Positions 2,634 through 62,402 of a stretch of 64,000 bases of DNA are shown here, piece by piece (within the stretch, counting starts at the first letter, position 1; the number at the start of each line of letters is the position of its first letter). The stretch is from NCBI GenBank assembly GCA_964019415.1, contig OZ025877.1, forward strand, positions 4,724,742 through 4,788,741, read 5' to 3'. The DNA comes from Ianthella basta. Lineage: Eukaryota > Porifera > Demospongiae > Verongiida > Ianthellidae. Position numbers and translations under genes: made by a program. A model generated the notes under the pieces. It was not told the DNA's origin, ran no database searches, and saw only the letters and a program-made list of their open reading frames with translations.

Positions 2634-3180
2634 TAGTCTCATCCCCAGACCCTTCCCGCAGGGGAGGAAGGCTCTGGTGAAAGTGGGCAGGAAGTTTGGG
2701 CTCAATGGAATGTAATTATGGATGATGACGTAATGCTGCGCTGTGTGCGATTAGTTACGGCCTCTCTGACGCTTCGATCACGAGTTGCTTCATGAGGGCA
2801 ATCAAAGGACTCACAACAATGACAATTGAGGTAGAGCTGGCGTGCTGGCGTAGAACATCGTAAACGGCAGGCAGCAGAGCATAGAGCGATTTTCCGTGGC
2901 ATGTTGGCAGACTTACGAAGAAGTCTTCGCTGCAAATGAACTCCGACACTGCCTGGTACTGCTTGTCCTTCAACTGTCTATATCTAAGTTCTTTAGCTGC
3001 TCTGGAGATGGCTGCGCTCACTTCTTCAACTGCGAATCTGCTTAAGCATACGTACTTGCCATTATAACTCGTTCGTGAGGTGAGAAATTGCACAATCCCG
3101 CTACTAGCAATCTGATTGGCGCTGCCCACATTCAGGCAGCAGTCACAAGAACCTGTCCAATTTCACCAGACCCTCCAGTG
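2634..3180. mobile_element. TAGTCTC-type TIR element, right end lost
   Basis: The left end TAGTCTCATCCCCAGACCC and the following 500 bases match the element at 49917-55057 once the LTR insertion there is ignored. Both contain a subterminal hairpin (CAGACCCTTCC with its complement) and a minus-strand RecQ-like fragment. Similarity stops near 3175 at CACCAGACCC, before the expected right TIR, so this copy is truncated or rearranged. No flanking duplication could be matched. Confidence 0.75.
2755..3129 (-). pseudogene. RecQ-like helicase N-terminal fragment
   Basis: This open frame of 124 codons has the RecQ order: a Q-motif-like RQLKDKQYQAV, a Walker A region LPTCHGKS (one Gly of the usual PTGxGKS replaced), then VVSPLIALMKQLV, which matches motif Ia. 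RecQ enzymes are ATP-dependent 3'-5' DNA helicases several hundred residues long. Here only the first quarter of the helicase core is present, ending just inside the left TIR. Transcription would run inward from the missing right TIR. A fragment carried by a transposon is the best reading; a functional helicase is excluded by length. Confidence 0.8.
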
Positions 3181-3389
3181 CCAGGAGGAGATGATTGGTG
3201 TTTCGTTGGCGGCAAGCTGTCGAGCTCACTACAATCACGACGCTGGTAACGCAGTGTACGCCAGACAAAGTCAGTATGGGTGAGAAACAGGAGCCATGTA
3301 TTCCTAGACCAGGTTGTAGCATGATGGGACGAGGAAGAGTGAGCAGGAAGCACCTCTACAATCTTATTGTAGACCTTAGCAGTACTGTT

Positions 3390-3485
3390 TTAGCCCAACA
3401 GAAGTTTCTGGACCGTATCCTCGCTCCACGCATCCACCAGTACCGCTGTTTTGCCATCCGACCACGTCTTTCCGCTTTCTGCCAT
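3390..3485 (-). pseudogene. Myb/SANT-like DNA-binding fragment
   Basis: A minus-strand ATG at 3485 opens 31 codons with the spacing of a trihelix Myb/SANT-like domain: KTWSDGKTAVLVDAWSED, with two Trp about 15 residues apart. A related continuation (VYNKIVEVL) appears in another frame just downstream, so the fragment is frameshifted. Such domains are common in regulators derived from Harbinger-type transposons. The fragment lies on the same strand as, and upstream of, the RecQ fragment at 2755-3129. Confidence 0.5.
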
Positions 3486-3495
3486 TTTCTAACAT

Positions 3496-3601
3496 TGGGT
3501 TGAACCCACCTCCTGAACTGGGTTGCGTGAACCGGGTTCGACCCAGTTACAAAATCAAAATTCCACACCTTAAAGGTGTGAAACTGGGTTTGACCCAGTT
3601 T
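3496..3601. repeat. Cluster of GGGTY-RACCC palindromes
   Basis: Three short palindromes of the form GGGTTnRACCC occur in about 105 bases (near 3497, 3535 and 3586; the last is ACTGGGTTTGACCCAGT). A CACACCTTAAAGGTGTG palindrome sits between the second and third. They lie directly upstream of the Myb/SANT-like ATG on the minus strand and could be dimeric factor sites or a decayed inverted-repeat element. Confidence 0.5.
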
Positions 3602-3884
3602 AAAAGTGTCCATGTGAAAGGGGTGAGTGAAATGCCATTAAAGAGGACTTAAGTTTGTAAATCGAGACCACCATTTGGAATGACAGATATAATGCATCAT
3701 AACGCACATGAGGCCATACGAATACCTAAAACTGAAACAATATATATAGGGACACCCAAAATTATACACACATACATTAGCACTGCATTGTAGGCATTTA
3801 TGATATTATGTAGCAAATTCAGGAGGGCAAAATGGCCTAAATCATAACTATTGGATAGGAGGAGCCTCAGAAAGCCAAACAAAT

Positions 3885-4065
3885 CGCTGTGAAATGGCTA
3901 GATTCAAAAGATGCTCATAAGACAAATTGCATCAATGTGAACAAATTATTAGGCTGCACCGGGAGACTGCAATCAGAAAGGAAGTCACCATGAAGTTGAA
4001 CACACGACTCTATAGGGGCACAGTGGTTGATTTTCTGGCCTGGACTCTTTCATCTCCAAAGGAGA
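3885..4065 (+). pseudogene. Tudor-like domain fragment of the BEN gene family
   Basis: The plus strand reads VKWLDSKDAHKTNCINV and, after a frame change, LYRGTVVDFLAW. These align with the N-terminal region of the gene at 4651 (VEWLEPKDAGELNRVNV ... YSRCYQAIVVDLLDW). The pattern suits a small Tudor-like fold, which is an inference. The piece is frameshifted and lacks any BEN region. Confidence 0.55.
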
Positions 4066-4109
4066 CATCACGCCAGCAACAGAAGAAGGGGAATCGTAAC
4101 AAAGCAGAA

Positions 4110-7350: not shown

Positions 7351-9066
7351 TAGGAATAATTAATATATAAATTAATTACAAGGATACAACAGCCCTACCT
7401 TATCAATCAAGACAGCATGCAATTATGCATGCACGCATGCAACAGTCAATTGTCAATAAGGGGCAGCCGCCCCCAGCACTGCTGCTGTGTTCCCTCTCTG
7501 TACTGTCACTGCCACCCTCTGGAGGAGGTATGCATGTGACATGTGGTCACCCGATGTCCCCCAACCTCTCCTATGAAGGCCTCTGCCTCAGGGCCAAACG
7601 CGCCCAAGGTCTCAACAGCAATTGCGACAAACTCGTGTGTTGCAAGTAGGTCCTGGTACTTGCTCCTCTTTCTCACTTCAGGAGGAGAGGCAACTGCTCC
7701 TGCCTCTCTAGTAGCCTGTGGAATGTGTGAAAGAGCAAACGTGCCTGGACACGTTACATCCCATACGAGGGAGTGCCCACACTTCCATGGTACAATAGTC
7801 AGCCTGTCAGGCCAAATTCCATCTGCTCTGCCTAGGCCGGTTGGTTCCAGGGTGGACGGAATGTGGGCAGCTGCCAATGATCTTCGGATGATGTAATTGA
7901 GGACAGCATGGCGAAGGTGTCTGCCCTTACTCCTTGAGCAGCTTAGGCCATGAGTACCAGTTGAGTCCACCTGGGCTCCACACCTCAGGCAGGTATGGGG
8001 TTGGCACAAGGCAGCCCCCAGGCGAAGACCAACTGCCACCATTACCAGTTCGTCGTCCATCCTGAGGCCTACAGCGGGAATGGGCAAGGCATTAAGCCAA
8101 GCACCAGACTCCTTAGTAGCAGCGGCAAGGAGACGGGCACGGGACCTGGGTTCTGTAGAGCTGGCCAAGATGGCTTGGTAGGTCTCTTGAACACTGGGTG
8201 CATCCCAAGCTTTCTGCTGACATGTGGCCACCCCCTGAGGGGCAGGACTGTTGTGGCTCTGACTCTAGAGAGAGAGAGCTACATCCGCTGCAGCATATGG
8301 AAGATCACTGAAACCGTCCGGGAGGATCTGGTGGATAAGGGCCGATGAGCCAGCGGCTGAAGCCAAGAAGGCGGAGGGTGCCAGCTGGACTGCACTTCTT
8401 ATTCCTATTCCCTTTGCTGACACAGGCAGTGAGGCCTGGAGCCAGATGGAATCAGTGTCACTTAGATTGACATTGAGGATGTCACTCAGGGTGTTACGTA
8501 GCTGTTCGTCAAATGCCTCCAGGAACTCAGATTCAAAGCATGGTGCAGTGCACAGAATGTAGAGCACCTTTGGCAGGGCAAATGAGTGGCAAAGGAGAAG
8601 AGTATCATGCCTGTGAAGATGCTACAGCCTATTACCCATTGTCTTTAGTGCTTCCAGCTTCTGTCCCAAGGCTTTGTCAATGGACTTTACTTTGCCGATG
8701 GGAGAACCCAACAATTCAGCCTCTTCCATGGGGACCACTTGTATGTCTGGCGCAGAAAGCAGTACTTCCTCTACTGCCTGTGCTTGGCCTATCACTTCGG
8801 TTTACCCGAAGGTTAACCCCTGATGCAAGGCTCTGCTTGTGCCTTCCCCTCTTGGCGGCCCGAAGGCAACGAATCAGGAATAGCAGGAGGCGCTCCCATG
8901 CACTACGGTTATTACAACCCACCACCTGATCAAGGATTGTTGTGAGCTTTGTAGACGTCTTCTCACAGGAGTCTCTCGAGATCCTTCTCAGCACACTGAT
9001 GTTGGGAGGACAGGATGGGATGGTGAGAGGAGTTGTAGTTGTGCCACTTTGTTCACCATGCCCCAA
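7351..9066 (-). mobile_element. LINE with restriction-like endonuclease, copy 1
   Basis: The minus strand carries an N-terminal region (about 9066-8800, including TTILDQVVGCNNRSAWERL). It then jumps to the thumb end of a reverse transcriptase (about 8770-8265, with EEAELLGSPIGK) and ends in a 241-codon frame (8231-7506). That frame has a CCHC finger (CLRCG ... HGLSC), an R-x2-H-x3-N element and PD ... WDVTC, which fit the C-terminal nuclease of R2/NeSL-type LINEs. The RT palm with the FYVDD box seen in copy 2 is missing, so this is an internally deleted copy. The 3' end is the AT-rich run near 7351. Confidence 0.75.
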
Positions 9067-13655: not shown

Positions 13656-14367
13656 TAGCCTCGTACCCAGTCCCTATTTCCATTCCGACTTCCACTCGGG
13701 AGGGAAATAGTGGGGGTCCAAGCCGTTGACTTCCGCCCCACGATTTCGCGGGGTACCAATCAGATTGCAGGATCATGCACGTGACTTAAACACTAGCAGT
13801 ACATAGCTAGAATATTTGAATCCTGGAGGGGATCAGCTGGCCTTGTTTGCCGAGAGCGGCAAAAACAGAAAGCGATCTTCACTGCTGCTGGTCGCAGGCG
13901 CAGAATAGTCAAACGGTCGGCATATCTGCCCTGCCTTGCTGCAAAGGACAACGATATCTCCGAGTTTGCTTGCAGGAAAAGGCCATTGACAACTTGGACA
14001 TCTTCCATGTAGCTTGATGGCTGTTATTGAGGTAGCTCAACACGAACGGTTGACTCTGGAAGTCGACCCAAATCCGTAAGATGTTAGGCGTGCCGACGAA
14101 GACCTCTTTTCAACCGAAGAAGGCGCACACAACTCCTCCCTGTTGCCAAATCAAGGTGGGACCTCTGTGCTGATCTACAGCTGTACGTGATCGCCTTCCA
14201 AAGCCTCGTCTGTGGCACGGTTTAGGAGCTGTGTCACAATATTACTTCCGAATTGGTCCAAAGTCACATGGATTGTGACGTCACGGCTTGGACCTCCCAA
14301 TGTTGCCAGGCCCTATTTCCCTCCCGAGCGGAATTCGGAATGGAAACAGGGAATGGGTACGAGGCTA
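13656..14367. mobile_element. TAGCCTC-type TIR element in the minisatellite
   Basis: The left end TAGCCTCGTACCCAGTCCC and the right end, read inward, TAGCCTCGTACCCATTCCC are TIRs that stay similar for about 60 bases. They are flanked by ACACCACAC (13647-13655 and 14368-14376). Since that 9-mer is also part of the minisatellite, the duplication alone is weak evidence. The TIR relation to the TAGTCTC family is strong. The 712-bp interior has a 71-codon minus frame (13793-14008) of unknown nature. Confidence 0.75.
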
Positions 14368-25333: not shown

Positions 25334-25943
25334 TAGTCTCGCAGGGCCAGACCCTTTCCTCCGGTCTTGCGTAACCCGCCCGCCCAAAGAATAGGGTCTG
25401 GGAGCTAGCCTATGCAGAAATCATGGAGGCTCCCAACTTCGATTATCGATCAATGCCTCATTATCGTGTAAATTCGAAGTGTTACTAGTAATCAGCTTCG
25501 TCGGCTATTCTTCTCTGGCTTGTTACTGATGGCGTTCCATATGTACGATGGTAATGGAACACGGCTGCTTTTGTAAGCATCCTGCACTGAACTAGAAGCA
25601 CTACCAGAGGCTTTTTGGCACAGCTATAATGATACGCTGCACGTCACCATCACTGACAAACTTAGAGATTTCCTAGGCAGGCGACTGAGCCTGGATGACG
25701 CTTTCTCACGAAGCAGTATCATTTGTAAAGACTGTTGCATACAGTAGCAGTCACTCTACGGGCTATTGCTTCGATCCTTGCACCTTCTTCGCACACCGCC
25801 ATACCATGACCCACAAAAAGAGGTGTTAGGAAACACCTAGTCTGGCGTTTCCACGGATATTACACAACAACAGTAGAGCTAACTCCCAGACACTCTCTTG
25901 GGCGCTTGTGCAATACCGGAAAGGGTCTGGCCCCACGAGACTA
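25334..25943. mobile_element. TAGTCTCG TIR element with 9-bp duplication
   Basis: The element starts TAGTCTCGCAGGGCCAGACC and ends in the inverse of TAGTCTCGTGGGGCCAGACC, so the TIRs are similar for about 28 bases. It is flanked by an exact 9-bp repeat TGGTAAATG (25325-25333 and 25944-25952). It is 610 bp long, with a 50-codon coding-like fragment on the plus strand. It is inserted next to a RecQ-like fragment. Confidence 0.85.
25589..25747 (+). pseudogene. Captured coding fragment in the TIR element
   Basis: The plus frame reads ALPEAFWHSYNDTLHV, then LRDFLGRRLSLDD and SSIICKDC before a TAG. The end resembles the second half of a CxxC ... CxxC zinc-binding region, like VCQTCF in the minus frame of 59022-59804. 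It is 50 codons, with no start of its own visible. The protein family is not recognised. Confidence 0.4.
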
Positions 25944-27459: not shown

Positions 27460-28125
27460 TCACATGCAAGGGAAGTCCATGGCAGGGCTCCACAGGGCAG
27501 TTCCTTGGATGGCTGCAGAGTTGCCCCGCTGGATGGCCACTGAGAGTCGCTGGAGCAAGTACTGGTGAGACGATGGCTCACCAGTAGCCTCCATCACCTT
27601 GTGAGCCAAGTCTCTAAGGAACGACTCAGATTCAGGTCCAATCACCCCAAGTGTCTCCACTGCAACAGGGACAAAGAAGTGGTTGCCGTCAAGGTTGGCG
27701 TACTTCTGCCTTTTGCGGTGCTCGGCCTCAGCTGCGACTGCCCCTGCCTCCCGTGTGGCTCGTGGCTCGTAGGAGCTGGCAAAAGTGTCCAGACATGTTG
27801 CATCCCAAATCAGAATCTTCCCTCCCTTCCAAGGCACCACTGAGGCCCCATCTGGCCTTTTGCCATCGGAGCGGTAGAGACCAACAGGCTCAAGATGGGA
27901 TGGGATTCGGGCTGCGTCAAGGGATCTCTTGACAAGGTCATTAACGGCTGCATGTCGAGAATGGCGGCCCTGGCTGTAACGGCAGCTGAGTCCATGGGTT
28001 CCTAGCTGATCTACCTCAGACCCACAGTGAAGGCACTGATGTGGTCGGCAAAGAGAAAGGTCCAGACGCAAACCAACAGCAATCCGAGTCGTCTCGTTGT
28101 CCATCCGCAGGCCCAGGGGTGCCAC
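27460..28125 (-). CDS. LINE C-terminal CCHC and nuclease-like domain
   Basis: The 221-codon frame contains CLHCGSEVDQLGTHGLSC (C-x2-C-x7-H-x4-C), then RHAAVNDLV, then KRPDGASVVPW and LIWDATC. In site-specific LINEs the Lys/Pro-Asp and the following Asp-Val/Ala-Thr block form the restriction-like endonuclease that nicks the target. The equivalent frame in copy 1 is 7506-8231. It is separated from the upstream linker frame by a stop near 28140. Confidence 0.75.
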   Translation of the reverse strand: MAPLGLRMDNETTRIAVGLRLDLSLCRPHQCLHCGSEVDQLGTHGLSCRYSQGRHSRHAAVNDLVKRSLDAARIPSHLEPVGLYRSDGKRPDGASVVPWKGGKILIWDATCLDTFASSYEPRATREAGAVAAEAEHRKRQKYANLDGNHFFVPVAVETLGVIGPESESFLRDLAHKVMEATGEPSSHQYLLQRLSVAIQRGNSAAIQGTALWSPAMDFPCM

Positions 28126-28379
28126 GGGGAGAGCGTTAAGTCAAGCACCCGCACCCCTGCTGGCCACGGCCAGAAGGCAGGCCCGTGTTCTGGGTTCTGA
28201 GGCTGTCTCAGGTAGGGTCTCATAGGAGGCTTCAATCAATGGTGCATCCCATGCCTTCTGTTGGTGTGCACTAGATGGAGGGGGCGGAGGCTGCTCGTGT
28301 TTTTGGCTCCAACTGTTGAGGCCCAGCTTGATGTATGGTTCTGGGATGCCTTGCAGCCTTGGAGGGAGGATCTCCTGAA

Positions 28380-29837: not shown

Positions 29838-30547
29838 GCGTGTTGCGGCGATAATATGCGTGACGTCATCGCCCGTTCTTTTTTTGTAGGCGTTGCGTAA
29901 GTGTCATAGACTTGTGCCTAAGGAAGTCCCAAAAAAGGTTTTGCCCGCTTCGGAACGTCACAAACACCGCGTTCTCTTCCGTTTCTTTCGAGGCTGAGTC
30001 AGTTCTTTGCCGGATATTATGATAAACGGACATATCCTCTACAGATTCACGCAAGAACGAAGATCATCGGACCTCGTATACCTTAGTATCTGTTTCCACC
30101 GTTAACCTTGTGGGCTAACAGATTTTCGACGATATTGCCCGTGAAATCTCTTTCAAAGGTAATGTTTGCCGCTTATTATGATAATTTGATTTGCTTTGTA
30201 ACCAGAACATTCAAAGTTAGGAAGGTTTTCTTCTTAGTCGCTGAGAATTTGTTGCCACAAATTCTACAGTCGCTTGTGCATCGTTTTACGAAGTTACTAG
30301 CTATTGGTTGCTTCTTTCTATCTCTGTGTAGATAAATATGTTTGAGAATAGAAACCTTGGTAGTCTCATAAACAGTAACAGTCAAACAACACGCGAGATT
30401 CGAAGAAAATAAGAGAAAGGGATATTTTCGGCGCCCACGCATGGTCAACACGCATGAATACACGGTGTCATACATTTATATTATTGTAACGCTTAATATC
30501 ATGTATAAATTTAATGTTTCCAATCCCTGTGGTTTTTACTATCTATG
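29784..30547. mobile_element. TIR element inside the LINE
   Basis: The ends CATAGATAGTAAAAACCACA and its exact inverse give a 29-base TIR (CATAGATAG ... GGATTGG). The LINE sequence CTTCAAG(C) is repeated on both sides (29777-29784 and 30548-30555), a 7-8-bp duplication depending on the edge base. Removing the insert restores LINE coding across STKLEEGDYKG. The duplication size suits hAT-like elements. The interior frame on minus (30475-30176) has a CxxC (CRICGNKF) but no transposase. Confidence 0.75.
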
Positions 30548-42915: not shown

Positions 42916-43332
42916 TAGTCTAGCCACTAGTCCCTACTTTGTCCTCGCGTGCGGGGGCGGAAGAAAGTAGGGTCTAGCACAATGTGTAAATTCCACACCT
43001 CGCAACCAACGCGCTACCAGGCGTTTATCCGGAAAGTCGATATGAACAACGTCGACGAATAAGACTCAGAAACGAGAGAAAACGACGACCAGAGGATGGG
43101 AAACGTAGTCGCGTAGGCTTTCCTTGACGATTACGGGCTCCACAGCCGCAGCAAGTGTAATAAAAACAATTGTCACCATGTCTCAACTTTGGTCAATAAG
43201 CGCCGGTGTCTCCATAATTGCTGCTGTGATCTGAAGCAGCAGCGATCTCATTGGTCAGCGCGAGCTGTGGAATTTACACATTCTGCTAGACCCCCATGTG
43301 CGATGACTAAGTTGGGTCTAGCGGCTAGACTA
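42916..43332. mobile_element. TAGTCTAG TIR element with 9-bp duplication
   Basis: The ends TAGTCTAGCCACTAGTCCC and, read inward from the right, TAGTCTAGCCGCTAGACCC remain similar for about 80 bases (both reach GTGTAAATTCCAC). The flanks CTCTAAACT and CTCTAAGCT match at 8 of 9 bases (42907-42915, 43333-43341). The 417-bp element has no coding sequence. Its end sequence defines a sub-family. Confidence 0.8.
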
Positions 43333-43642: not shown

Positions 43643-43767
43643 TAGTCTCGTGTAGCCAAGATAGCTATTCTGCCATCATTTTGTCCGCAGACGTCAGCGC
43701 TCGGCAAGCAATGATGCCAGCATATAAAAATGGATGCTGGAATAATGGTTTGGGCTGCATGAGACTA
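43643..43767. mobile_element. 125-bp TAGTCTC MITE
   Basis: The ends TAGTCTCGTGTAGCC and, inward from the right, TAGTCTCATGCAGCC form TIRs. TCTGTTCC is repeated exactly on both sides (43635-43642, 43768-43775), 8 bases with the ninth mismatched. It is the shortest member of the family here. Confidence 0.7.
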
Positions 43768-46213: not shown

Positions 46214-49135
46214 CTATGCGGACTCAGCAAATGGCTCGCGAATTGGCTGTCTGTTGCTGTACCGTGGGAGAACCAGTTGAGGGAGGACAGCACGCCTATA
46301 GAACTCGATTATCCTCCAACGTGCAGGAACCCAGAAGCCAGGATCGGCCTGAATTGTTTCTATACTTAATCCCTTTGGTGTCCATTGCACAAAGTGGTAC
46401 CAGGGCTTGCCAGTGATCGCCAAGAAGCCTTGCACTTGCTAAAAGTACGCGTGCGTGCGCTTCAGTTGAAGCTGGCCATCGTCGCTCAGTGTGGAACAGA
46501 ATCCTCTCAGCTGCACAGCTGCCAGTTGTGGTATTAGAGACTACTTCGCTGCTTTGTATGGACATTTGTACTCTACCAAGCTCTGTTCACCAGTGGCAAG
46601 AGTGACAATGTCATCAGGGCTACAAGCCAGGCATGGTTCTCTGTGATCGATGACAAGACCACACCGTGTGGTGACTGCTCCAGACATCTGATGCAAGTAC
46701 GCCTTGCGTGCATCGTCCTCATGCAGTCTGCCCCAACGAAGACTGGATATGTTGAATGGTCTTTTGTAAAGCAACTGCTTCACTGTGTTGGCAATTGGAG
46801 TAGAAGTCCTATGTCGTGTGATGTTGCCGAAGTTGGATGCTGTTATACGCAGCCGGCGTTGTCAGTACCACTCAGGTGACTCAGTCTGTTGTCGTGTGGT
46901 GATCTCTATTGCCTTAGCCTACTCCTCTGTCACCTGTACTTCTCGCTCAAAGTACTCACGGCACAACCGTTCCAGCTCATCTGGTGAAGCATCAGGCTGC
47001 TGAGAGTCTGGTCCATAGTGGTGTTGTGAGGATGATGTGGTGTACTTCGAGGACTGACGCTGGGTCTTGTAGACATCTGTGGCCTTCCTAGCTCTGTCCT
47101 TCTCCACCTGTAACGTTCCCTTCATCACGGCTGACTGGAAAACCTATATTGAATATACTGTACAGAAAGGCAGGTCAAAAGAACTCTAGTCTCTGCATAT
47201 GGTTGTATTGTTGTGAGCCCATTGACAACAGATGATGCCGAACTTTCTAGACACCTATATGTTATTGACATGATTTGACTGACATGACTTGATCTGTGTA
47301 CTCTAGAACATTCTCCACAGAAGCCTATAAATAAGATCTTTGTACTGCATTTGCCAGTCCTGCCTTGCCTAATCATTGATTTGAGCAACTGTCCACTTTG
47401 TACAATTACGGTCCCTGCGAATGCAACAGTATTTATGATAACTCACATTCCCAGGTGCTGAACTGGTAGCATACTCCAGCGCTTCCAACTGCCAAGATGG
47501 ACCAGCCTGAACCCTCATGCTTGCTGTATAGCACCGACCCTCAAAAGACCCCAACTGTGCTCGGTTGTACTGTTTCCCACCATCAAATGCACTTCTGATC
47601 GCCATGTAGCACTCTGCAAGATTACTGGTCTGATTATCAATTAACTGTTCACTCAGCATCACCAGACGATCACCAACAGCCCGCACTTTCTCCATTAGTC
47701 CAACAGGTAAACACAATGCTATTGTCTCACCACTTTTGCGTGCGTCATGTTCATCTGTAGCTGTAGATTCGTCATCTAATTCACATCCTATAATGTCATG
47801 TAGTTGTTCAGTCAGAGGTTGTGGAGGATCTTGAATGCTGTCGTCATTGTCATTGTCACTGTCACTGTCACTAGAAATGCTATCCTCAGTCACTGCTGAA
47901 GCGTTGCAAAATGCAGGGTTGCACTGTGCATGGTCACCAAAAACATGGTTTGGGCCATTTCTCAGATCGTGCCGAAGCTGCTTCACATCCTTGCTTTTGC
48001 TGTGCATTTTGATCGCAATGCGGGCACTAACAGTTAGGCGCTGTATAGCTCACTTTGTTAGACCTCCCTTGCCTCTTAATTCAGGATGGTCTTTCACCAA
48101 GGTTTCTAACCTAGAGCGATAACATTTACAGGCAAGATTGGCGCATTCTATCTTAGTAATGAATGGGCCATAAGTGACACATTGTTGCAAGTTCGTCATT
48201 ACCGAACTGTCACCATCCCCAATGACACGCATATACCTTAAGCCATGTGTCTGGTCAGAGAGACGAAACCCCTCTACAATGATATCACTTTCCATAGCTG
48301 TCAAAGACCCACTCCAATCACGATAGCATCTATGGTGTGGTGTTGGCTTCTGTTGCTTCTCTGCTACAGAGCAGACTGCACAGTATTTGTTTCTAACACC
48401 AACAAACAGTACCTATTTGTGCATTGACCAAAAATCACAGCCACACCACTCTTAGCATTATATGTGTGCTTATGTGAGCGCTTCCACCATCCTCCATCTA
48501 CTGCGACAGTAATGGATGGTATGCCATGATGCATATCAGCCCTCTCCACTGCCAGTCTGCGTTCTTCCTCTCCAGCTTCAGTCATATTCTCAGTAAGGAG
48601 CTGATGCATACAGTCACTCAATAACCGCTCTGTTGTGGAGTACAACCTCTTAGGCATACCTGGAACATTCATGGGTGTCACTGAGCACGTCAGTGAACTT
48701 GCACCCCCACCTGTAGCCATCTGGCCTAGTACAGCGGCAACATCGACCACCCATCTTTGATGCCCATCTGCTGTCTTCACACGCTTGGAAGAATTGATTT
48801 GAAATTTTGTGCCACATTTGAGGCATTTTACAGATAATATTGATGCCAGACCAGCGTGCATTTCCCCATCCAATACACACATTCCTCCACATTGCCCAAT
48901 GTGAGAGGAAACTTCAGCTAAACCAGAACCCAAATTTTTCAAATCCATGATTCATGACTCCAGTTGTGCAGTAATATTGGTGACATCTGTTAGAGCCTTG
49001 TAGTTTGTGAACAATTCCACCTGGCTTCTGCTGCTTTTCTAGCAGCATTCTTCTCCCAGTTTTACAATATGCTGCTCTGTCTAATCTATCATACCTAGCT
49101 TTTCTCCTGCTCATGCTGTTTGGTTGGTCTCTCAT
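46214..49135 (-). pseudogene. Mutator-like transposase with YqaJ-type nuclease domain
   Basis: Read on the minus strand: an N-terminal cysteine region (CLKCGTKFQIN), a helical region, VAVDGGWWKRSHKHTYNAKSG (first catalytic Asp), VIGDGDSSVMTNL (second Asp), VTKIECAN-like ITKIECANLACK, and NLAECYMAIRSAFDGGKQYN (likely Glu). A YGPDSQQPDASP linker and a YqaJ-like exonuclease domain (LRWGRLHEDDARKAY, SPDDIVT, LVEYKCP, then VQGFLAITGKPW) follow. It is decayed: a TGA in LTK*AIQRL near 48050, a TAG in the exonuclease region near 46437, a TGA-type stop near 46918 and frame changes near 48930 and 48330. A 240-base gap at 47128-47369 may be an intron. Mutator-like elements usually make 8-11-bp duplications, which matters for the TAGTCTC elements. 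Its own TIRs were not found. Confidence 0.75.
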
Positions 49136-49916: not shown

Positions 49917-49970
49917 TAGTCTCATCCCCAGACCCTTCCCGCAAGGGAGGAAGGGTCTGGTGAAAGTGGG

Positions 49971-50267
49971 TGTAGTGACCAAGTAGTTAGTAGTCACTGC
50001 TGTTGATTGCTGGTTATTATCATTATTATTATTATTATGCTATTATTACGGTTGTGTTCTGTAGTGCAATGTATTAGTGATCATTATTCTTACGTATGTT
50101 GTACTATTATTGGTATCTGCATGGTTACGTAGTTGTACCCGGTTGTATTGTGCCTTTGTCCCATTGTTCATTGATTGTCTTGCTGAGCGGATCGCTGTGA
50201 CAAGTGCGGTGCATGAGCGTGGCCCGACCGACTGTTCCAGAAGTGTAAGAGCGTGCAGAACATCACA
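49971..50267 (+). repeat. 5' LTR
   Basis: It starts TGTAGTGACC and ends CATCACA, with the usual TG ... CA borders. It contains an ATT-rich run near 50020-50045. It is the same length as the 3' LTR. Confidence 0.95.
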
Positions 50268-50285
50268 TTTGGCGACGAAGGAAAG
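50268..50285 (+). promoter_or_regulatory. Primer-binding region
   Basis: TTTGGCGACGAAGG directly follows the 5' LTR, the position where a tRNA primes minus-strand synthesis. TGGCGAC starts are seen in many invertebrate Ty3/gypsy elements. The tRNA was not identified. Confidence 0.6.
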
Positions 50286-50300
50286 TCCGACGCGGGAGAG

Positions 50301-53300
50301 ATGACCACACACGGCCAGATCAGCGAGTTCCACGGAGTCCCGGAGGAATGGACCTCATACGTGGAACGCCTGGAGTGTTACTTCTTGGCCAACGATGTGG
50401 CCGACGCAGAGAAGCAACGCGCGATCCTGCTGAGTTGCTGTGGCGCCTCCACGTACAGCTTGATCCGGAGTCTGGCCACGCCAAGCAAGCCCACAGCCGT
50501 CGCGTACAAGGACTTAGTAGAGAAAGTCACCGCGTACTATGCTCCCAGAAGATCCAAGATTGTTTCGCGATTCAAGTTTAACTCGCGCTCACAACAGCCC
50601 GGTGAGTCTATCGCAACGTATGTGTCTGAGTTACGGAAACTTTCCGAATTTTGTGAATATGGTGCTACATTAGATGATATGCTATGTGACCGACTTGTGT
50701 GTGGCCTTGCTGAACGATGGGTTCAGCAGCGCCTCCTCGCGGAAGGGGATCTCACATTTGACAAAGCCCTGAAGATCGCCCAGGCCATGGAACTGGCAGA
50801 ACGAGATGCCAGGGACCTCCAGCAAGCCGGTGCACACAGGAATGTACCAGTTCATAGGGTAGCCCAGCCACCTAGGACTGCCAGACAGGACAAGGATGGT
50901 AAACCTTGCCACCGTTGTGGAGGGAGTCACGACCCATCCCAGTGCCGCTTTAGGGATGCGCAGTGTCACGCTTGTGGAAAGAAGGGCCACATTAAGCGGG
51001 CATGCAGAAGCCAGAGCAAGGTCCCCAGTGCTACCGGTGGTGAGCAACCCCAGAGGCAAGCTGTCCACCTAGCCAAAGAGGACACTGTCACTACACCGCC
51101 AGAGCTGCAGGAATACACTTTGTACCCACTCCACGATCTAGCCACACGACCCCTGAAGGCCACGGTGGAGGTAGAGGACCAGGAGCTCATCATGGAAGTA
51201 GACACTGGTGCCTCAGTTACCGTCATCAGTGAGGCCACGCTGGGAAGCATCTGGCCAAAACAACCTGCCCCACCACTCCAACCAACTGCCGTGAAACTGC
51301 GAACATACACCGGGGAGGCAATCCCAGTGGTTGGAAGGTTGATGGTCAAGGTGCAATACCAGGGCCAAGAGGAGCAACTTCCCCTCGTTGCCGTTGCTGG
51401 AGATGGGCCCAGCCTGTTGGGTAGAGACTGGCTTGCTAAGTTGAAGCTGGAATGGAAGCACATGTTCCGCGTGCATGCCCAGGAGAGTCTGCAGGATGTC
51501 CTGGAACGACACGACATGGTGTTCAAGCCAGAGTTGGGCAGGATCAAAGGAGTTGAAGCAAAGCGTCACATCAACCCTGAGGCCCAACCACGTTTCTACA
51601 AGTCGAGATCAGTACCATATGCTCTTCGCCAGAAAGTGGAACAGGAGCTGGACAGACTGGAGGAAGCCGGAGTCATTGTCCCCACCCAGCACTCGGACTG
51701 GGCAGCTCCTATTGTTCCGGTTGTGAAGTCTAATGGCTCAGTGAGGATTTGCAGAGACTATAAACTGACAGCCAACACGGCAACGAAGACTGAGTCCTAC
51801 CCTTTACCCAGAATTGAAGACTTGTTTGCATCCCTTGCCGGAGGTAAGGTGTTCTCCAAGCTTGACCTGTCCCATGCTTACTTGCAGCTGCCACTGGCTG
51901 AAGAATCACAACCCTTACTGACAGTCAACACCCACAAGGGGCTCTACCGTTACTTGAGGCTCCCCTTCGGAGTTTCTTCAGCACCAGCCATCTTCCAGCG
52001 TACCATGGAGACCTTACTACAAGGCGTGCAACATGTATGTGTGTACCTTGATGACATCCTCATCACCGGTTGTTCTCAGCAGGAGCACCTGAAGAACCTG
52101 GAGGAGGTCTTGCAGCGGTTGGAAGAGGCAGGAATGCGACTGAAGCAGGAGAAGTGTACCTTCCTCATGCCCGAAGTGGAGTACCTGGGGCACAAGATCA
52201 GCCCGGAGGGCCTGCAGCCAACTGAGTCCAAGGTGCGTGCCGTAGCAGATGCCCCCGAGCCGAAGAAAGTGACAGAATTGAGATCGTTCCTGGGTCTAGT
52301 GAACTATTATGGCAAGTTCTTACCCAACCTCGCCTCCACGGCAGCACCCTTGTATAACCTGCTGAAGAAGAATGCCCGCTGGACATGGGGCAAGACCCAA
52401 AAGGCGGCATTCAAGGGGGTGAAGGAGTTGCTACACTCGTCGGACATGCTAGTCCACTTTGACCCGGAGGAACAGCTCATCTTGGCATGTGATGCCTCGC
52501 CCTATGGACTAGGAGCCGCGCTATCCCATCGCATGCAAGATGGCTCTGAAAGGCCAATAGCTTTTGCATCCCGTACCCTTGCCCCAGCGGAAAAGAAGTA
52601 CTCACAGCTTGACAAGGAAGCATTGTCCATCATCTTTGGAGTCAAGAGATTCCACCAGTACTTGTACGGCCGCCAGTTCATCATCCACTCAGACCACAAG
52701 CCACTCATGTACATCTTCGATGAGTCAAAGGCAGTGCCACTCATGGCATCTGCAAGGATCCAGCGATGGGCTCTCACTCTCAGTGCCTACACTTACACCA
52801 TCCAGTACAAGGCCGGGAAGGATCATGCCAATGCTGATGGCCTCAGTCGACTTCCCCTGGAGGATGCCCCACCTGAAGTGCCAAGACCAGCTGAGACAAT
52901 TCTCCTTATGGATCATCTTGCAGCTTCACCAGTGTCGGCTAGCCACATTCGACAACAGACAGACAATGACCCTACCCTGTCAAAGGTTAGGAGTTTCGTC
53001 CAGCATGGTTGGCCTGATGTATTACCAGATACCAGTGACATGCAACCATACCATCACCGAAGACTTGACTTGAGCATTGAAGATGGCTGCCTGTTAAGGG
53101 GAAGCAGAGTGGTGGTGCCTCCCAAATTGCACAATAGAGTGGTAGACGAACTACACGAAGGCCATCCAGGCATTGCCAAGATGAAGGCACTGGCCCATCA
53201 ATATGTGTGGTGGCCGGGCCTGGATGGAGATCTAGAAGAGAGGGTGAAGCAATGCACCCCATGTCAGGAATGCCGTAAGAATCCACCAGCGGCACCACTC

Positions 53301-54050
53301 CACCCGTGGGAATGGCCAGAGCAACCGTGGAGGAGAGTGCATGCAGATTACGCTGGCCCTTACTTAGGACACATGTTCCTCATACTCATTGATGCACATT
53401 CCAAGTGGATGGAGGTACACATGACGAGGTCATCCACATCACTCGTGACCATCGAGAAAATGAGAAGCTCCTTTGCGACATTAGGGCTACCAGAACAGCT
53501 GGTAACTGACAATGGCCCTAGCTTCACCAGTGGGGAGTTTCGCCAGTTCATGAGGAACAATGGAGTACACCACATCACGACATCCCCCTACCATCCATCA
53601 TCAAATGGATTAGCCGAGAGGGCTGTCCAGACGTTTAAGTCAGGTATGAAGAAGCTGACTGAAGGAACCCTGGAGACCCGGTTGATTCGGTTTCTATTCC
53701 ACTATCGGACCACACCCCATGCCACAACAGGTCAGTCCCCAGCAGAGCTGATGTTAGGAAGACAGCTCAGGACACGCCTGGACCTGCTCAAGCCAGACAT
53801 CGGCAAAAGAGTAAGAGCACACCAGGAGCAGCAGAAGAGAGCACACGATGCTCATTCCAAACCAAGGGGGTTCCAGCCTGGAGTGCAGGTCTACGCCAAG
53901 AACTTTGGTCAAGGGCTTCCATGGCTACCTGGGGTCATCCAGGATTTGAAGGGTCCTGTGTCTTACACCATTGAGCTCCAAGATGGTCGTGTTGTTCGAC
54001 GACATGTGGATCATGAGAGCTCGCACAGCTACAGTCCAACCATCGGTTGA
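50301..54050 (+). CDS. Ty3/gypsy gag-pol polyprotein
   Basis: One frame encodes Gag and Pol together. In order it has a capsid-like region, two zinc knuckles (CHRCGGSHDPSQC and CHACGKKGHIKRAC, near 50910-51005), protease (EVDTGASVTVISE), reverse transcriptase (FSKLDLSHAYLQL, then CVYLDDILITG), RNase H (LACDASPYGLGAAL) and integrase (HPGIAKMKALAHQYVWWPG, LVTDNGPSF, YHPSSNGLAERAVQTFK). The likely start is the ATG at 50301, just after the primer-binding region; an earlier ATG lies in the LTR. Fusion without a gag-pol shift is known in several Ty3/gypsy lineages. Domain order (integrase last) separates it from Ty1/copia. Confidence 0.95.
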   Translation: MTTHGQISEFHGVPEEWTSYVERLECYFLANDVADAEKQRAILLSCCGASTYSLIRSLATPSKPTAVAYKDLVEKVTAYYAPRRSKIVSRFKFNSRSQQPGESIATYVSELRKLSEFCEYGATLDDMLCDRLVCGLAERWVQQRLLAEGDLTFDKALKIAQAMELAERDARDLQQAGAHRNVPVHRVAQPPRTARQDKDGKPCHRCGGSHDPSQCRFRDAQCHACGKKGHIKRACRSQSKVPSATGGEQPQRQAVHLAKEDTVTTPPELQEYTLYPLHDLATRPLKATVEVEDQELIMEVDTGASVTVISEATLGSIWPKQPAPPLQPTAVKLRTYTGEAIPVVGRLMVKVQYQGQEEQLPLVAVAGDGPSLLGRDWLAKLKLEWKHMFRVHAQESLQDVLERHDMVFKPELGRIKGVEAKRHINPEAQPRFYKSRSVPYALRQKVEQELDRLEEAGVIVPTQHSDWAAPIVPVVKSNGSVRICRDYKLTANTATKTESYPLPRIEDLFASLAGGKVFSKLDLSHAYLQLPLAEESQPLLTVNTHKGLYRYLRLPFGVSSAPAIFQRTMETLLQGVQHVCVYLDDILITGCSQQEHLKNLEEVLQRLEEAGMRLKQEKCTFLMPEVEYLGHKISPEGLQPTESKVRAVADAPEPKKVTELRSFLGLVNYYGKFLPNLASTAAPLYNLLKKNARWTWGKTQKAAFKGVKELLHSSDMLVHFDPEEQLILACDASPYGLGAALSHRMQDGSERPIAFASRTLAPAEKKYSQLDKEALSIIFGVKRFHQYLYGRQFIIHSDHKPLMYIFDESKAVPLMASARIQRWALTLSAYTYTIQYKAGKDHANADGLSRLPLEDAPPEVPRPAETILLMDHLAASPVSASHIRQQTDNDPTLSKVRSFVQHGWPDVLPDTSDMQPYHHRRLDLSIEDGCLLRGSRVVVPPKLHNRVVDELHEGHPGIAKMKALAHQYVWWPGLDGDLEERVKQCTPCQECRKNPPAAPLHPWEWPEQPWRRVHADYAGPYLGHMFLILIDAHSKWMEVHMTRSSTSLVTIEKMRSSFATLGLPEQLVTDNGPSFTSGEFRQFMRNNGVHHITTSPYHPSSNGLAERAVQTFKSGMKKLTEGTLETRLIRFLFHYRTTPHATTGQSPAELMLGRQLRTRLDLLKPDIGKRVRAHQEQQKRAHDAHSKPRGFQPGVQVYAKNFGQGLPWLPGVIQDLKGPVSYTIELQDGRVVRRHVDHESSHSYSPTIG

Positions 54051-54206
54051 GATGGATGACTATCCCATCATCGAGACACCATCTCCGAACACCGAGTTAC
54101 CACCAACTGATCCGCCACCTGCCGCAGCGGGGTAGAGTCTTCGCCGTTCCTCCCGCCCCCACAAGTCACCAGAGCGTTATGGTGTGACTGTGAGACATTG
54201 ACTAAT

Positions 54207-54217
54207 GGGGGAGGAGA
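54207..54217 (+). promoter_or_regulatory. Polypurine tract
   Basis: GGGGGAGGAGA lies directly before the 3' LTR, where plus-strand DNA synthesis is primed in LTR retrotransposons. Confidence 0.85.
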
Positions 54218-54514
54218 TGTAGTGACCAAGTAGTTAGTAGTCACTGCTGTTGATTGCTGGTAATTATCATTATTATTATTATTATGCTATTATTACGGTT
54301 GTGTTCTGTAGTGCAATGTATTAGTGATTATTATTCTTACGTATGTTGTACTATTATTGGTATCTGCATGGTTACGTAGTTGTACCCGGTTGTATTGTGC
54401 CTTTGTCCCATTGTTCATTGATTGTCTTGCTGAGCGGATCGCTGTGACAAGTGCGGTGCATGAGCGTGGCCTGACCGACTGTTCCAGAAGTGTAAGAGCG
54501 TGCAGAACATCACA
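54218..54514 (+). repeat. 3' LTR
   Basis: It has the same borders and length as the 5' LTR. It is followed by the GTGGG target duplication, and then the TIR element resumes exactly as in the sibling copy at 2684. Confidence 0.95.
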
Positions 54515-54594
54515 GTGGGCAGGAAGTTTGGGCACAATGGAATGTAATCATGGGTGATGACGTAATACTGTGTGTGATTAGTTACAGCTTCTCT

Positions 54595-54970
54595 GACGCT
54601 TCGATCGCGAGTTACTATTCTGTGCGAAGCAGGGGACTCACAATGATGACAATCGAGGTAGGGCTGGCGTGCTAGGGTAGAACATCGTAAACGGCGGGCA
54701 GCGGAGCATAGCAGAGCGATTTCGACCGCCTGTTAACAGACTTACGAAGACGTCTTTGCCGCAAACGAACGAACAACACTGACTGGTACTGCTTGTCCTT
54801 CAACTGTCTACATCCAAGCTCTTTAGCTGCTCTGGAGGTGGCTGCGCTCACATCTTCAACTGCAAATTTGCTAACGTACGTACTTGCATTATATAATTCG
54901 TTCTCGAGGTGAGAAATTGTGCAATATTTCGCTACCAGCAATGTGATTGGCGCTGCCCACATTCCGGCAG
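54595..54970 (-). pseudogene. RecQ-like helicase N-terminal fragment
   Basis: It corresponds to 2755-3129: FAVEDVSAATSRAAKELGCRQLKDKQYQ is recognisable in parts, then the Walker A region is frameshifted and ends with PLPAVYDVL. Its start lies about 100-150 bases inside the right TIR and reads inward. Confidence 0.75.
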
Positions 54971-55363
54971 CGGTCATGAGAACCTGTCTATTTTCACCAG
55001 ACCCTTCCTCCCTTCGCTCACTCGCGTGCACTTCGGAAGGGTCTATGAACGAGACTAGATATAAGCAAGATCTGCGCATCACTACCAGAGCGAACACCCA
55101 CGAGAGGCTCAGATCCTTCTCGGAATGTCAAGTTCCAATTAGTCGTGGTTTTCACACCTAATCCCACACCTGTGCGTGTTATGCAACGTGTGTTTACAAA
55201 CTTGCAGAATTCATTTACATTCTTCTTGTGTACGACGGAGCTGATCGTTAGTTACAGTTCGGTGCTTCAGGCAGGCGTATCCCAAACTTCATCAGCTAAC
55301 CGCACTAGCTTCAGAAAGTTGGGAAATGCCTGCCTGCACCAGTAGTAGCTACGGTAACAGTGC

Positions 55364-58523: not shown

Positions 58524-58585
58524 TAGTCTCGTTCCAGCCCACCACTTCCGCTAACAAAATGGCCGCGGAAAAGGTGGTCTGGTCA
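58524..58585. mobile_element. Left end of an outer TAGTCTC element
   Basis: TAGTCTCGTTCCAGCCCACC starts a TIR that also has CCACTTCCGC and AAAATGGCCGC. The element at 58586-59007 is inserted 62 bases into it, and that at 59022-59804 lies 14 bases further on. No right end with a matching flank (GTATTTCAC) was found, so this may be a solo end. Confidence 0.55.
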
Positions 58586-59007
58586 TAGTCTCGTTCCCAG
58601 CCCCCCCCCCCCAAAAGGTGGTCTGGCACATTTGCTCGATATTCTGATTAATTAAAAACTTTCGGTAAGTTGCGTCACATGCATGCAAGAAGCACAAGGA
58701 TTGGGGCGCTTGCTAGAATCGTCTCAAGGGGCGGTAACGGACATTGAGAAACTGTACCAGGCCACCCTTCAAAATTGTGAAAGCGGTAACATTGGGTACA
58801 GTTTGATTTCATTTGATAGAATGCCTAAATATGACTCACGTAGGTGAGCGAATGAAGCTACTAAATTGCGTATCGCAACACATGGAGGCGCTTGCCAAGA
58901 TTTTGGCAAGCGCCCCAAGGGCGGTATCAAAATAACGAGCAAATGTGCCAGACCACCTTTCGGGCCATTGCAAAATGGCGGCCGGAAGTGGGCTGGGGAC
59001 GAGACTA
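58586..59007. mobile_element. TAGTCTC TIR element with 9-bp duplication
   Basis: The exact flanks GTCTGGTCA (58577-58585, 59008-59016) enclose 422 bp beginning TAGTCTCGTTCCCAGCC and ending, inward, TAGTCTCGTCCCCAGCC. Its body is nearly the inverse of 62040-62395, so it is a close relative of the element at 61500. No coding sequence is present. A palindrome GCGCTTGCCAAGATTTTGGC (followed by AAGCGC) sits near the right end. Confidence 0.9.
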
Positions 59008-59243
59008 GTCTGGTCATAGCGTAGTCTCATCCCCAGCCCACTTCCGGCCGCCATTTTGCAATGGCCCGAAAAGGTGGTCTGGCGACTATGGTCGACTTTC
59101 TTGGGCCCGGAAGTCCATTCCCAGCAGGAATGTGTGCTGGCCAATCAGATTACACAACAGCTCATTAGTGGCATGTTATGCATAACATTCACACCTCTGG
59201 CGTTCACACATTCCTAGCAGCATAGATCTATGCTAGCAGCGAG

Positions 59244-59501
59244 ATGGCAGCTTCGATGGGAGAAGTGAGCTTCCCAGGATTAGGCGCAAGGCTACCTTCG
59301 GCCGCAGTGAACAGTGTTATTCTGGAAGCATACGTAATACCCGGCTACGAGAAGCCCACAGATCAGGAAGAGGCGATTTTGGACTTCTTAAAGGGACGCG
59401 ACGTCTTCGTTTTCCTCCCAACAGGGACGGGCAAGTCTCTCTGCTTCGCCACTCTTCCCTCCGCCTTGCTGCCTTTCTCCAGCTTGGAAAAGCAGGTTTG
59501 A
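59244..59501 (+). pseudogene. RecQ-like helicase first exon
   Basis: ATG at 59244 starts MAASMGEVSFPGLGARLPSA and continues to DQEEAILDFLKGRDVFVFLPTGTGKSLCF. This has a Q-motif-like region and an intact Walker A (PTGTGKS). After LCFATLP the frame is antisense to the facing CxxC gene and no longer RecQ-like, and it stops at 59501. The ATG lies about 140 bases inside the TIR. Confidence 0.8.
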
Positions 59502-59653
59502 CACACGTACTGGTTACTACTTTCAGTTTCTGCAATTCGAAGCCCGACCGTACACTTGGCAAAGGCGAAAACCTTAGGGCTACTCTCTATTCGCCTGCAA
59601 AAAGAAGGATTTGCCACGCTGCAGAAACACACAGCACAGCGTGGCACTTCCAT
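59455..59653 (-). pseudogene. CxxC zinc-binding protein first exon
   Basis: A minus-strand ATG at 59653 starts MEVPRCAVCFCSVANPSF, and about 40 residues later NQYVCQTCFSKLEKGSKAEG follows. Two CxxC pairs about 48 residues apart, with the Cys-Phe-x-x-Leu ending, resemble a ZAD-type zinc-binding domain. The family was not identified. The frame is open further upstream into the TIR, but the Met beside the first CxxC is the better start. Confidence 0.5.
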
Positions 59654-59946
59654 CTTGCCCGTACAAATTTCACACCTCGCTGTTCCCACCAGTGTTACGT
59701 AATCAGAACTGGCTTCCAGGTCCAAGAAAGTCGACCATAGTCGCCAGACCACCTTTTCGGGCCATTGCAAAATGGCGGCCGGAAGTGGGCTGGGGACGAG
59801 ACTAGTCATAGCGATAATGGAATTCGGAATTTCCCTCCACTATCTATGGTCTGGTATCTTTGGGGTTGGCTCGCCTCGACGCATCGCGAATACTTTTGGC
59901 CAATCAGATCGCCGCTTGATCACGTGCTTACGAAATCACGCGTGAG

Positions 59947-60099
59947 CCTCGTACGTGAAGATATGGAAGATGACTCTCAAACGTTCTTTTATGAATCCTG
60001 GATATGCCACAGAACTGGATCCCAATCGTGGACTGTCCATAATCCAAGAAAGAACGCTTACACTTTGAGACTCCTCCCTATTCAGCTTCACGTACGAGG
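59947..60099. repeat. Foldback repeat
   Basis: CCTCGTACGTGAAG and CTTCACGTACGAGG are perfect 14-base inverted ends. Inward, GACTCTCAAACGTTCTTT pairs imperfectly with AAGAACGCTTACACTTTGAG. No gene is present. Confidence 0.75.
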
Positions 60100-60158
60100 T
60101 TTTCGGTGGACACGTGACTAAGCAGCGTAACCGTAAGTAACAGGCAGGGAAAGACGAA

Positions 60159-60290
60159 CTACTACTTGTTACTTTGTTTTCAACCACCATTCATGTACAA
60201 GTATTATCATTACAATGTCATATCTTACCTTAAATACCTATATGGCAGTGCGCATGTGTGCCTATATACTTGTTTAATTATTATTCTCAC
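60159..60290. mobile_element. 132-bp insertion with 14-bp duplication
   Basis: CAGGGAAAGACGAA occurs on both sides (60145-60158, 60291-60304), and the outer element reads through when the insert is ignored. The insert is AT-rich with no TIRs. The duplication length suits a short retroposed (LINE- or SINE-derived) fragment. Confidence 0.55.
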
Positions 60291-60364
60291 CAGGGAAAGA
60301 CGAAAGAGGGTCTAGCAGAGGTCATTAATATTCATAGCCGAGTGACCAATCAGATCTACTACAG

Positions 60365-60838
60365 AACTTTTTGGGTTGGTTGTCCCGACCGGACATGTGC
60401 AATCGGTTATCGGTTATCAATTTACAACCTGGTGACGTCATTATGGCGGCTACAACCTAGCCGAAGTAGCGGCGTTTGGAAAAAGGAAGACTGGAACAAA
60501 GCGTATTCGGACGATTTTAGGCTAAGAATGGTGGGGACATTTCTGTACCAAGAGGAAAACGCCTTCTCGATAAGCAAACAGACAGCACGGGAGCTAAACA
60601 GACTCGTACCGATCGCGTGCCACGATTTTCTGTAACCTGCGTTCCAGACCGCTGAGAAAAGTGTCGAATCACGACCAGTCGGTGATTGAGGTCGCCCGCT
60701 TTCGCCACGTACCCTGAATCTCCTGTTCACTGTCCGCCAATAGAATTGGGTATGCTAAAAGTTACGCAAAAATGACGTCACCAGGTTGATAACTGATAAC
60801 CGATTGCGACCATCCGGTCGGGACACCCAACCCAAAAG
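60365..60838. mobile_element. TIR element with GGGTTGG ends
   Basis: CTTTTTGGGTTGGTTGTCCC and, inward from the right, CTTTTGGGTTGGGTGTCCC are TIRs that stay similar for about 75 bases (through CCTGGTGACGTCATT). The flanks TACTACAG and TACTGTAG match at 6 of 8 bases. It contains an unrecognised plus frame (to 60635) and opposing minus frames. Confidence 0.65.
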
Positions 60839-61490
60839 TACTGTAGCTGGATCCAACTAGTAGTGGCACCTCGTCGACACCTCCACGTTAGTTAAACACG
60901 GACGGTTTTGTTGAAGCGCGAGCAGTAATGGCGGCGCACTTCACCGTGTGGATTGACACTATCTCAAGTCACCCAGTGCTGCTGACGAAGGCACGTGAAA
61001 TGGTAGAAGGCACAGGATTCTTGAAGCTCCTGTAATAACTCGCGGCGAGAAACAGACGTTGCTGATGGCTCTTCGGTGCTCCCTGAACCAGAAGCTAGTC
61101 TTTTGGCAAAAGGGGAGACTCCAGTTTTAGCCGAAGACCGCAGAGGTTGTTACTGCGACCGACTAGTCAATCCCGGAGGGCTATTCTCATCGGAGAGGGA
61201 GCAGAGTCGTAGTGCGGCTTGCGAAGAAGCTCACTCTTTGACTCTTCGTATCGTTTCTTCTGATTCTCGACCGTTAGAAGCTTACCCCGACATGATGCGC
61301 ATACAGAGCTCAGTGGTTCGCCCATTCTCGGTTCCTAACTGCACTAACTGACTGTTTGCACAGACTCGCTGCACTGCAGAGCAATCGTAGCCGGTTTACC
61401 CTGGGTGGGACGGTCTAGCAAGCCATACTACGGTACGCGTTGCTGGCAAAGTGTGAAATACCTTATTATGAATATTAATGACCACTGCTA
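60839..61490. other. Interior of the outer TIR element
   Basis: A plus frame at 61076-61351 is open but unrecognised. No boundary or motif was seen apart from the inverted CATTAATATTCAT block near 61470 that pairs with about 60325-60337. Confidence 0.4.
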
Positions 61491-61499
61491 GACCCTCTT

Positions 61500-62402
61500 T
61501 AGCCTCGTCCCCAGCCCACTTCCGGCCGCCATTTTGCAATAGCCCGAAAGCACGGCTGTTTCGCCGGGGTAACTTAGTTGTTACGCAACATTTTTGCATT
61601 CGAAAAATGGCGTCTTTTTCCCTATGCTAGCAATGTATAACGGATCTCATTCCTCCGAGTTTTTCGGAATAAACGGCTTGGTGCATCTTATTGCTGGTAA
61701 TTGTTTAGGTATTTTGGTATTAGTCTAATCTTACTCCTTATTTTTCCTGCAGTTTTGAGGAATGTATGTGCGTAATGGACATTTAGTATTAAATATACAC
61801 ATGTTTACAATATAAAACATACCGGTCCTGGAAACCTGCAGAAAAAAAGGAGTAAGATGGGACCTACACCGAAACGTCTATAATAATACCAACGATCAAA
61901 TGCTGTATATCATTTCTCTAGGAAAACCCGGAGGAGTGATATCTTTATACATGGCTAGCATACGGCAATGGGCGCCATTTTGCAATTGCGCAAGAATTAC
62001 TAAGTTGTACACGCGGGATACAAGTGAAACAGCCGTGAAAGGTGGTCTGGGTTGCTCGTTATTTTGATACCGCCCTTGGGGCGCTTGCCAAAATCTTGGC
62101 AAGCGCCTCCATGTCTTGCGATACGCAATTTAGCAGCTTCATTCGCTCACCTACGTGAGTCATATGTAAGTATTCTATCAAATGAGATCAATATGTACCC
62201 AATTTTACGGCTTTCACAATTTTGAACGGTGGCCTGGTACAGTTTCTCAAAGTCCGTTACCGCCCCTTGAGGCGATTCTAGCAAGCGCCCCAATCATTGT
62301 GCTTCTTGCATGCATGTGACGCAACATACCGAAAGTTTTTAATTAATCAGAATATCGAGCAAATGTGCCAGACCACCTTTTGGGGGGCTGGGAACGAGAC
62401 TA
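61500..62402. mobile_element. TAGCCTC/TAGTCTC TIR element with 9-bp duplication
   Basis: The exact flanks GACCCTCTT (61491-61499, 62403-62411) enclose TAGCCTCGTCCCCAGCCC ... and, inward from the right, TAGTCTCGTTCCCAGCCC. Ignoring the insert at 61551-62037, it is close to the inverse of 58586-59007. It lies within the outer element at 60125-62477. Confidence 0.9.
61551..62037. mobile_element. Foldback element with 4-bp duplication
   Basis: CACGGCTGTTTC and GAAACAGCCGTG are perfect 12-base ends, flanked by AAAG (61547-61550, 62038-62041). The parent element is restored without it. Inner pairs (CTTACTCC with GGAGTAAG, CTGCAG near both) show that most of its 487 bp folds back. CAC ends with 4-bp duplications have been described for Chapaev-like elements, but this assignment is tentative. 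Confidence 0.65.

Follow-up and report, generated by a model that had tools for sequence, protein, structure and literature searches.

The 64,000-bp stretch of the Ianthella basta genome analysed here (contig OZ025877.1, positions 4,724,742 to 4,788,741; hereafter the window) contains a group of short elements that begin with TAGYCT, end with AGRCTA, and are mostly flanked by 9-bp target-site duplications (TSDs). We consider it likely that these elements are non-autonomous AcademH-type DNA transposons, members of a known though little-studied cut-and-paste group, and the copies are probably internally deleted. The assignment is based on the length of the duplications and on the remnants of a RecQ-type helicase in two of the sub-families.

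The shared ends were noted in an earlier, sequence-only reading that listed eight elements, and a recheck of the window found all of their coordinates and flanks to be correct (elements are named here by their first position; Table 1). Across the whole window, each TAGYCT was combined with all AGRCTA hexamers in the following 8 kb, which yielded 92 pairs from 32 left and 25 right hexamers. Exact 9-bp duplications flank six of these pairs and an exact 8-bp duplication flanks one; duplications of 5-7 bp and of 10-12 bp are absent, and those of 4 bp number two, against 0.36 expected. The chance expectation for 9 bp is about 0.0004 (92 x 4^-9), while random shifts produced 0.0025 matches on average over 2000 trials, with 1 as the highest count in any trial. 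A further control with 400 random hexamer/complement pairs produced no 9-bp duplication among 14,370 pairs. When both ends were shifted jointly by one base in either direction, three matches remained, as is expected wherever the adjoining bases agree too; unequal shifts of up to three bases left none. The count and its controls bear out both the shared outer ends and the sharp peak at 9 bp, and we regard the existence of TAGYCT...AGRCTA elements with 9-bp duplications as confirmed. Among the eight paired elements, six have exact 9-bp duplications, one matches at 8 of 9 positions and one has 8 bp. The earlier reading had set the 13656 element apart as a minisatellite case; the location is correct, but the duplication is an ordinary exact one of 9 bp. 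Position 2634, taken as the start of the family's range, is indeed a left end (nhmmer E 0.00018) but does not belong to a complete element, the right terminus having been lost and the duplication with it.

Removal of the 13656 element and one copy of its duplication joins flanks that match a resident minisatellite unit at 39 of 40 positions, and the neighbouring units thus represent the empty site of this copy. This comparison had a sequence to match in the case of 13656; 25334, 42916, 43643 and 49917 are without a comparison sequence. Later insertions into the elements can be treated in the same way: the 2634 relative keeps unsplit sequence where a long terminal repeat (LTR) retrotransposon interrupts 49917, and 58586-59007 is the empty site for the 487-bp insertion of 61500. 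The elements also appear to have inserted into one another: the terminal part of an older relative, starting at 58524, seems to have received 58586 and 59022, and 61500 seems to lie in the terminus of a second older relative at 62477.

Comparison of the ends supports the earlier claim of several sub-families with differing inner terminal inverted repeats (TIRs). In our reading, the inner ends define the groups {58586, 59022, 61500, 58524}, {49917, 2634}, {42916}, {25334}, {13656}, {43643} and {62477}. Many ends carry a motif like CCAGACCC about 12 bp inward, which recurs in inverted orientation further in. This subterminal inverted pair was scored in 20 ends (16 from the eight paired elements and four orphan ends, of which two had to be read through later insertions), and in 14 of the 20 no more than 4 of 150 shuffles reached the observed score; the 20 ends are not independent, some being near-identical, and the shuffles preserved base rather than dinucleotide content. 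The pair did not stand out in the other six ends (25334 right, 42916 right, 43643 left, 58586 left, and 61500 left and right). The right end of 43643 passes the shuffle test, yet with a different motif and in a copy that is near-palindromic overall; the CCAGACC/GGTCTGG pair was not seen in the ends of 43643, and this copy, with its 8-bp duplication, is the least certain member of the group.

The coding remnants also bear on the identity of the elements. Models recognise a RecQ-type helicase start in two copies, 59022 and 2634, with recQ_fam as the top NCBIfam model and PF00270 past its cut-off for both; a third, decayed start in 49917 is known by likeness, and no helicase was recognised in the other six of nine copies. 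The start in 59022 opens 222 bp inside the left end and that in 49917 about 180 bp inside the right end, each reading inward. The starts are present in two divergent sub-families, and between the 59022 and 2634 helicases the identity is 45% over 40 aa (E 6e-5).

AcademH is a lineage of the Academ superfamily, reportedly set out by Kojima in 2020. As described in PMC10045372, AcademH generates 9- or 10-bp duplications and AcademX 3 or 4 bp, a contrast seemingly tied to the encoded helicase and nuclease, and a RecQ helicase has been noted in Academ (PMC3627910). The elements in the window show both a duplication of the AcademH length and an element-encoded helicase of the RecQ type.

Several points count against this assignment. 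The likeness to AcademH concerns the TSD and helicase as described in the sources cited, with the termini outside the comparison, and some Kolobok elements are described as encoding a RecQ helicase too (PMC9587614). One copy, 43643, has an 8-bp duplication. The helicase pieces score 28.0 and 30.8 bits, far under the full-length recQ_fam cut-off of 219.8, as expected because the pieces are short. The best PDB match of the 59022 piece is DeaD, a DEAD-box protein (2.5e-5), followed by RecQ5 (4.2e-5); RecQ and DEAD-box proteins fit the piece almost equally well, and PDB alone therefore cannot separate the two. The 2634 piece has no PDB match at 1e-3, with RecQ4 (0.0063) and chain 1oyw (0.013), a bacterial RecQ, appearing at a looser limit, and the 49917 piece is unrecognised by Pfam and was identified solely through its likeness to the 2634 piece. 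Finally, no transposase, the defining catalytic protein, was recognised in these short copies, and this includes one of Academ type. The elements contain 68 stop-free pieces of at least 40 aa (178 of at least 20 aa); 30 of the 68 were compared with Pfam, some with slightly shifted bounds. The helicase was the only family to reach its cut-off, and the Pfam matches listed for these pieces include no transposase family, Mutator or other.

An open cysteine-rich frame lies on the other strand of 59022 from the helicase start. We would guess that this frame, read from 59734 to 59468, is the N-terminus of a lost transposase, an identity that stays a guess because no Pfam family reached its cut-off. 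Two other observations were dropped, namely a weak match to a zinc ribbon (13836-14036, E 0.018) in the minus-strand reading of 13656-14367, which fell below the cut-off, and a cysteine-pair reading within 25334-25943, which had no Pfam match.

The sequence-only reading had instead assigned the elements to Mutator, taking duplications of 9 bp to be rare in other groups. That premise fails, with 9-10 bp described for AcademH (PMC10045372) and 8-9 bp for Merlin (PMC8101967). Mutator-like elements (MULEs), some of them with a captured host RecQ gene as in Pack-MULEs, stay the main rival, as the copies offer no transposase by which the question could be settled. MULE duplications in Aedes are 8 or 9 bp (PMC5225508), a range that would take in both duplication lengths found among the present copies. 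Furthermore, a broken Mutator-type transposase gene is located within the window at 47.4-49.0 kb (47369-48951, minus strand; PF20700 5.3e-32 for the first part). However, this open reading frame (ORF) has no relative in the elements (best E 0.27 against the rest of the window), and neither a TAGYCT...AGRCTA pair nor convincing inverted ends were found around it. The lack of a Mutator match in the 30 pieces is weak evidence, the copies being short. The helicase starts near an end in two sub-families also argue against Mutator, since with 45% identity over 40 aa a resident gene fits better than two captures. We consider the Mutator assignment unlikely: the 9-bp duplication alone pointed to it, the coding remnants say otherwise, and a likely misfiling is corrected.

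Could the elements belong to hAT, or to another 8-bp superfamily with TAG...CTA ends? Ends of hAT elements are often TAG or CAG, and one copy has an 8-bp duplication, but this stands against six exact and one near duplication of 9 bp. A RecQ helicase is, to our knowledge, not a hAT feature, nor do we know of a helicase in Merlin, and the chance of a hAT-type origin seems very slight. A separate RecQ-helicase superfamily outside Academ, with a transposase of its own, would be in keeping with the lack of an identified transposase, with a cysteine-rich frame (59468-59734) below every Pfam cut-off, and with the inverted pair found in 14 of 20 ends. AcademH, though, already combines the helicase with this TSD length (PMC10045372), and we hold such a superfamily to be improbable. 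A distinct RecQ-helicase group outside Academ is likewise improbable, one in which the transposase would have a new cysteine-rich DNA-binding start and a target of two opposed motifs at either end of the element.

Returning to the AcademH-type assignment, a plausible history of the copies can be outlined. The helicase would have been encoded by an intact relative at another place in the genome, together with a transposase whose N-terminus was cysteine-rich and whose gene perhaps lay on the opposite strand. This transposase would have bound the CCAGACC/GGTCTGG-like motifs, which form an inverted pair close to either end, and cut at TAG/CTA, and the element would then have been joined to nicks staggered by 9 bp, with gap filling producing the duplications. 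The short copies would have been mobilised in trans. If the elements are AcademH, a eukaryotic genome harbours several co-resident AcademH sub-families, and the subterminal inverted motif pair in most of them is a candidate binding site for the transposase.

The element group looks old in the window. The earlier reading had called it active, a description not borne out by the best-matching end pairs and copies, which differ by 6-16%, others differing more. Divergence is about 7% between 58586 and 61500 and about 16% between 2634 and 49917; end-to-end identities are rough age guides only, because the two ends may have differed at insertion. That the family was the main insertional force here is arguable by number of insertions and does not hold by bases, as the named element pieces sum to 4,676 bp of 64,000 and a single LTR element accounts for 4,544 bp.

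Table 1. Positions of the elements, ends and coding remnants in the window (strand is left empty where none applies).
Feature	Position	Strand	Description
Element, 49917 sub-family	2634-3174	-	Right terminus lost; 83.6% identity to 54514-55005 over 501 columns
Longer helicase start in 2634 element	3060-2758	-	PF00270 1.9e-9 (whole frame 3.9e-9); recQ_fam 1.3e-7
Element, 712 bp	13656-14367		Exact 9-bp TSD ACACCACAC; within 27-bp minisatellite; TIRs 51/55 identical
Element, 610 bp	25334-25943		Exact 9-bp TSD TGGTAAATG; TIRs 56/76 columns identical
Element, 417 bp	42916-43332		9-bp TSD with 1 mismatch (CTCTAAACT/CTCTAAGCT); TIRs 62/88 columns identical
Near-palindromic copy, 125 bp	43643-43767		8-bp TSD TCTGTTCC; halves align at 80/127 columns
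Element, about 590 bp, split by LTR retrotransposon	49917-55057	-	Exact 9-bp TSD GATATAAGC
LTR retrotransposon, 4,544 bp, inside 49917 element	49971-54514	+	TSD GTGGG; LTRs differ at 3/297 positions
Decayed helicase start in right part of 49917	near 54875-54588	-	59% identity over 96 aa to 2634 piece, 3.8e-24
Putative left end of older relative	58524-58585	+	nhmmer E 0.011; our reading of the sequence
Element, 422 bp	58586-59007		Exact 9-bp TSD GTCTGGTCA; 93% over 376 bp to 61500-62402 reversed
Element, 783 bp	59022-59804		Exact 9-bp TSD GTCATAGCG; TIRs 93/99 identical
RecQ-type helicase start, motif PTGTGKS	59244-59498	+	Inside 59022-59804; PF00270 2.8e-6; recQ_fam 9.2e-7
Open cysteine-rich frame	59468-59734	-	Best Pfam E 0.24, below cut-off; overlaps helicase frame by 31 bp
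Element with nested later insertion	61500-62402		Exact 9-bp TSD GACCCTCTT
Nested element, 487 bp, inside 61500	61551-62037		Ends CACGGCTGTTTC; 4-bp TSD AAAG
Putative right end of older relative	62412-62477	-	By eye and by subterminal inverted pair; absent among nhmmer hits

Two further ends at 34170 (nhmmer E 0.41) and 35918 (nhmmer E 1.8) are possible and weak, the former possibly belonging to the 42916 sub-family. Partners were sought for the orphan ends at 2634, 58524, 34170, 62477, 35918 and 25412. Flank-matching 9-mers were found, one exact and the others with one mismatch, and no partner was accepted because none of these 9-mers lies at a TAG/CTA end.

Other repeats share the window with these elements. 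The LTR retrotransposon within 49917 has reverse transcriptase, RNase H and integrase domains (Pfam), the order of which we read as that of a Gypsy-type element. Between 60362 and 60843 lies an element with inverted ends CAGAACTTTTTGGG and CAGTACTTTTGGG and TA on both flanks, which by these flanks alone may be Tc1/mariner-like. On the minus strand, a reverse transcriptase ORF occupies 28380-29903 (PF00078 5.3e-17), and a frame without a Pfam match at 7506-8264 resembles by eye the frame at 27460-28140, the neighbouring DNA being related as well (family D16); the ORF at 28380-29903 and the frame at 7506-8264 are probably remains of non-LTR retrotransposons.

Searches beyond the window, comprising five scans of viral collections and one of a genome collection (viral contigs, bacteria and archaea), found no intact copy, which says little because the searched collections contain viruses and prokaryotes. 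The TIR pattern matched two viral contigs (L001 and L002); BLAST showed no similarity between either contig and the window at the cut-offs applied, and these matches were taken as chance. Among six matches in bacterial and archaeal genomes, the four that were checked (L003, L004, L005 and L006) have no paired end with a duplication; L007 and L008 were outside this check. Nothing was confirmed when viral contigs were searched at the protein level, the queries being the two helicase starts, the cysteine-rich frame and the Mutator ORF, and when the TIR letters were sought in the literature, none of the matches listed looked related. One of the prokaryotic matches, L005 (2560-3560), lies on a contig of a Nitrosopumilus metagenome-assembled genome (MAG) and encodes DUF6570 and Helitron_like_N domains; it has one TAGTCTCGTTCCCAGACCC end without a partner and one protein-level match to the LTR element of the window. 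This contig is probably eukaryotic contamination of the MAG. A search of the same genome with the 161 bases around the L005 end returned the self-match only, no helicase query being made there.

How do the elements compare with known systems? Merlin resembles them in its 8-9 bp duplications but has terminal GG (PMC8101967), where the elements here have TAG. KolobokH and Kolobok-1_CCri share a RecQ helicase, encoded in one of them on the complementary strand (PMC9587614). Kolobok does not fit, however, because its RecQ elements are described as making 4-bp TTAA duplications, with RR...YY ends (PMC9587614), whereas 9-bp duplications and TAG...CTA ends are found here. Mutator-like elements such as Muta1 show 8-9 bp duplications and non-autonomous derivatives (PMC5225508); the differences are the helicase start present here and the MULE transposase, which was not recognised here. 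Among the Aedes MULEs, TIRs exceed 100 bp in 12 of 14 families, and subterminal repeats in tandem occur in 10 of these 12 (PMC5225508), in contrast to the mostly inverted subterminal pair of the present elements. The window's elements differ from AcademH in that the copies are short and a transposase is not seen, and they share with it the element-encoded helicase and the duplications of 9 or 10 bp described for that group (PMC10045372, PMC10799480).

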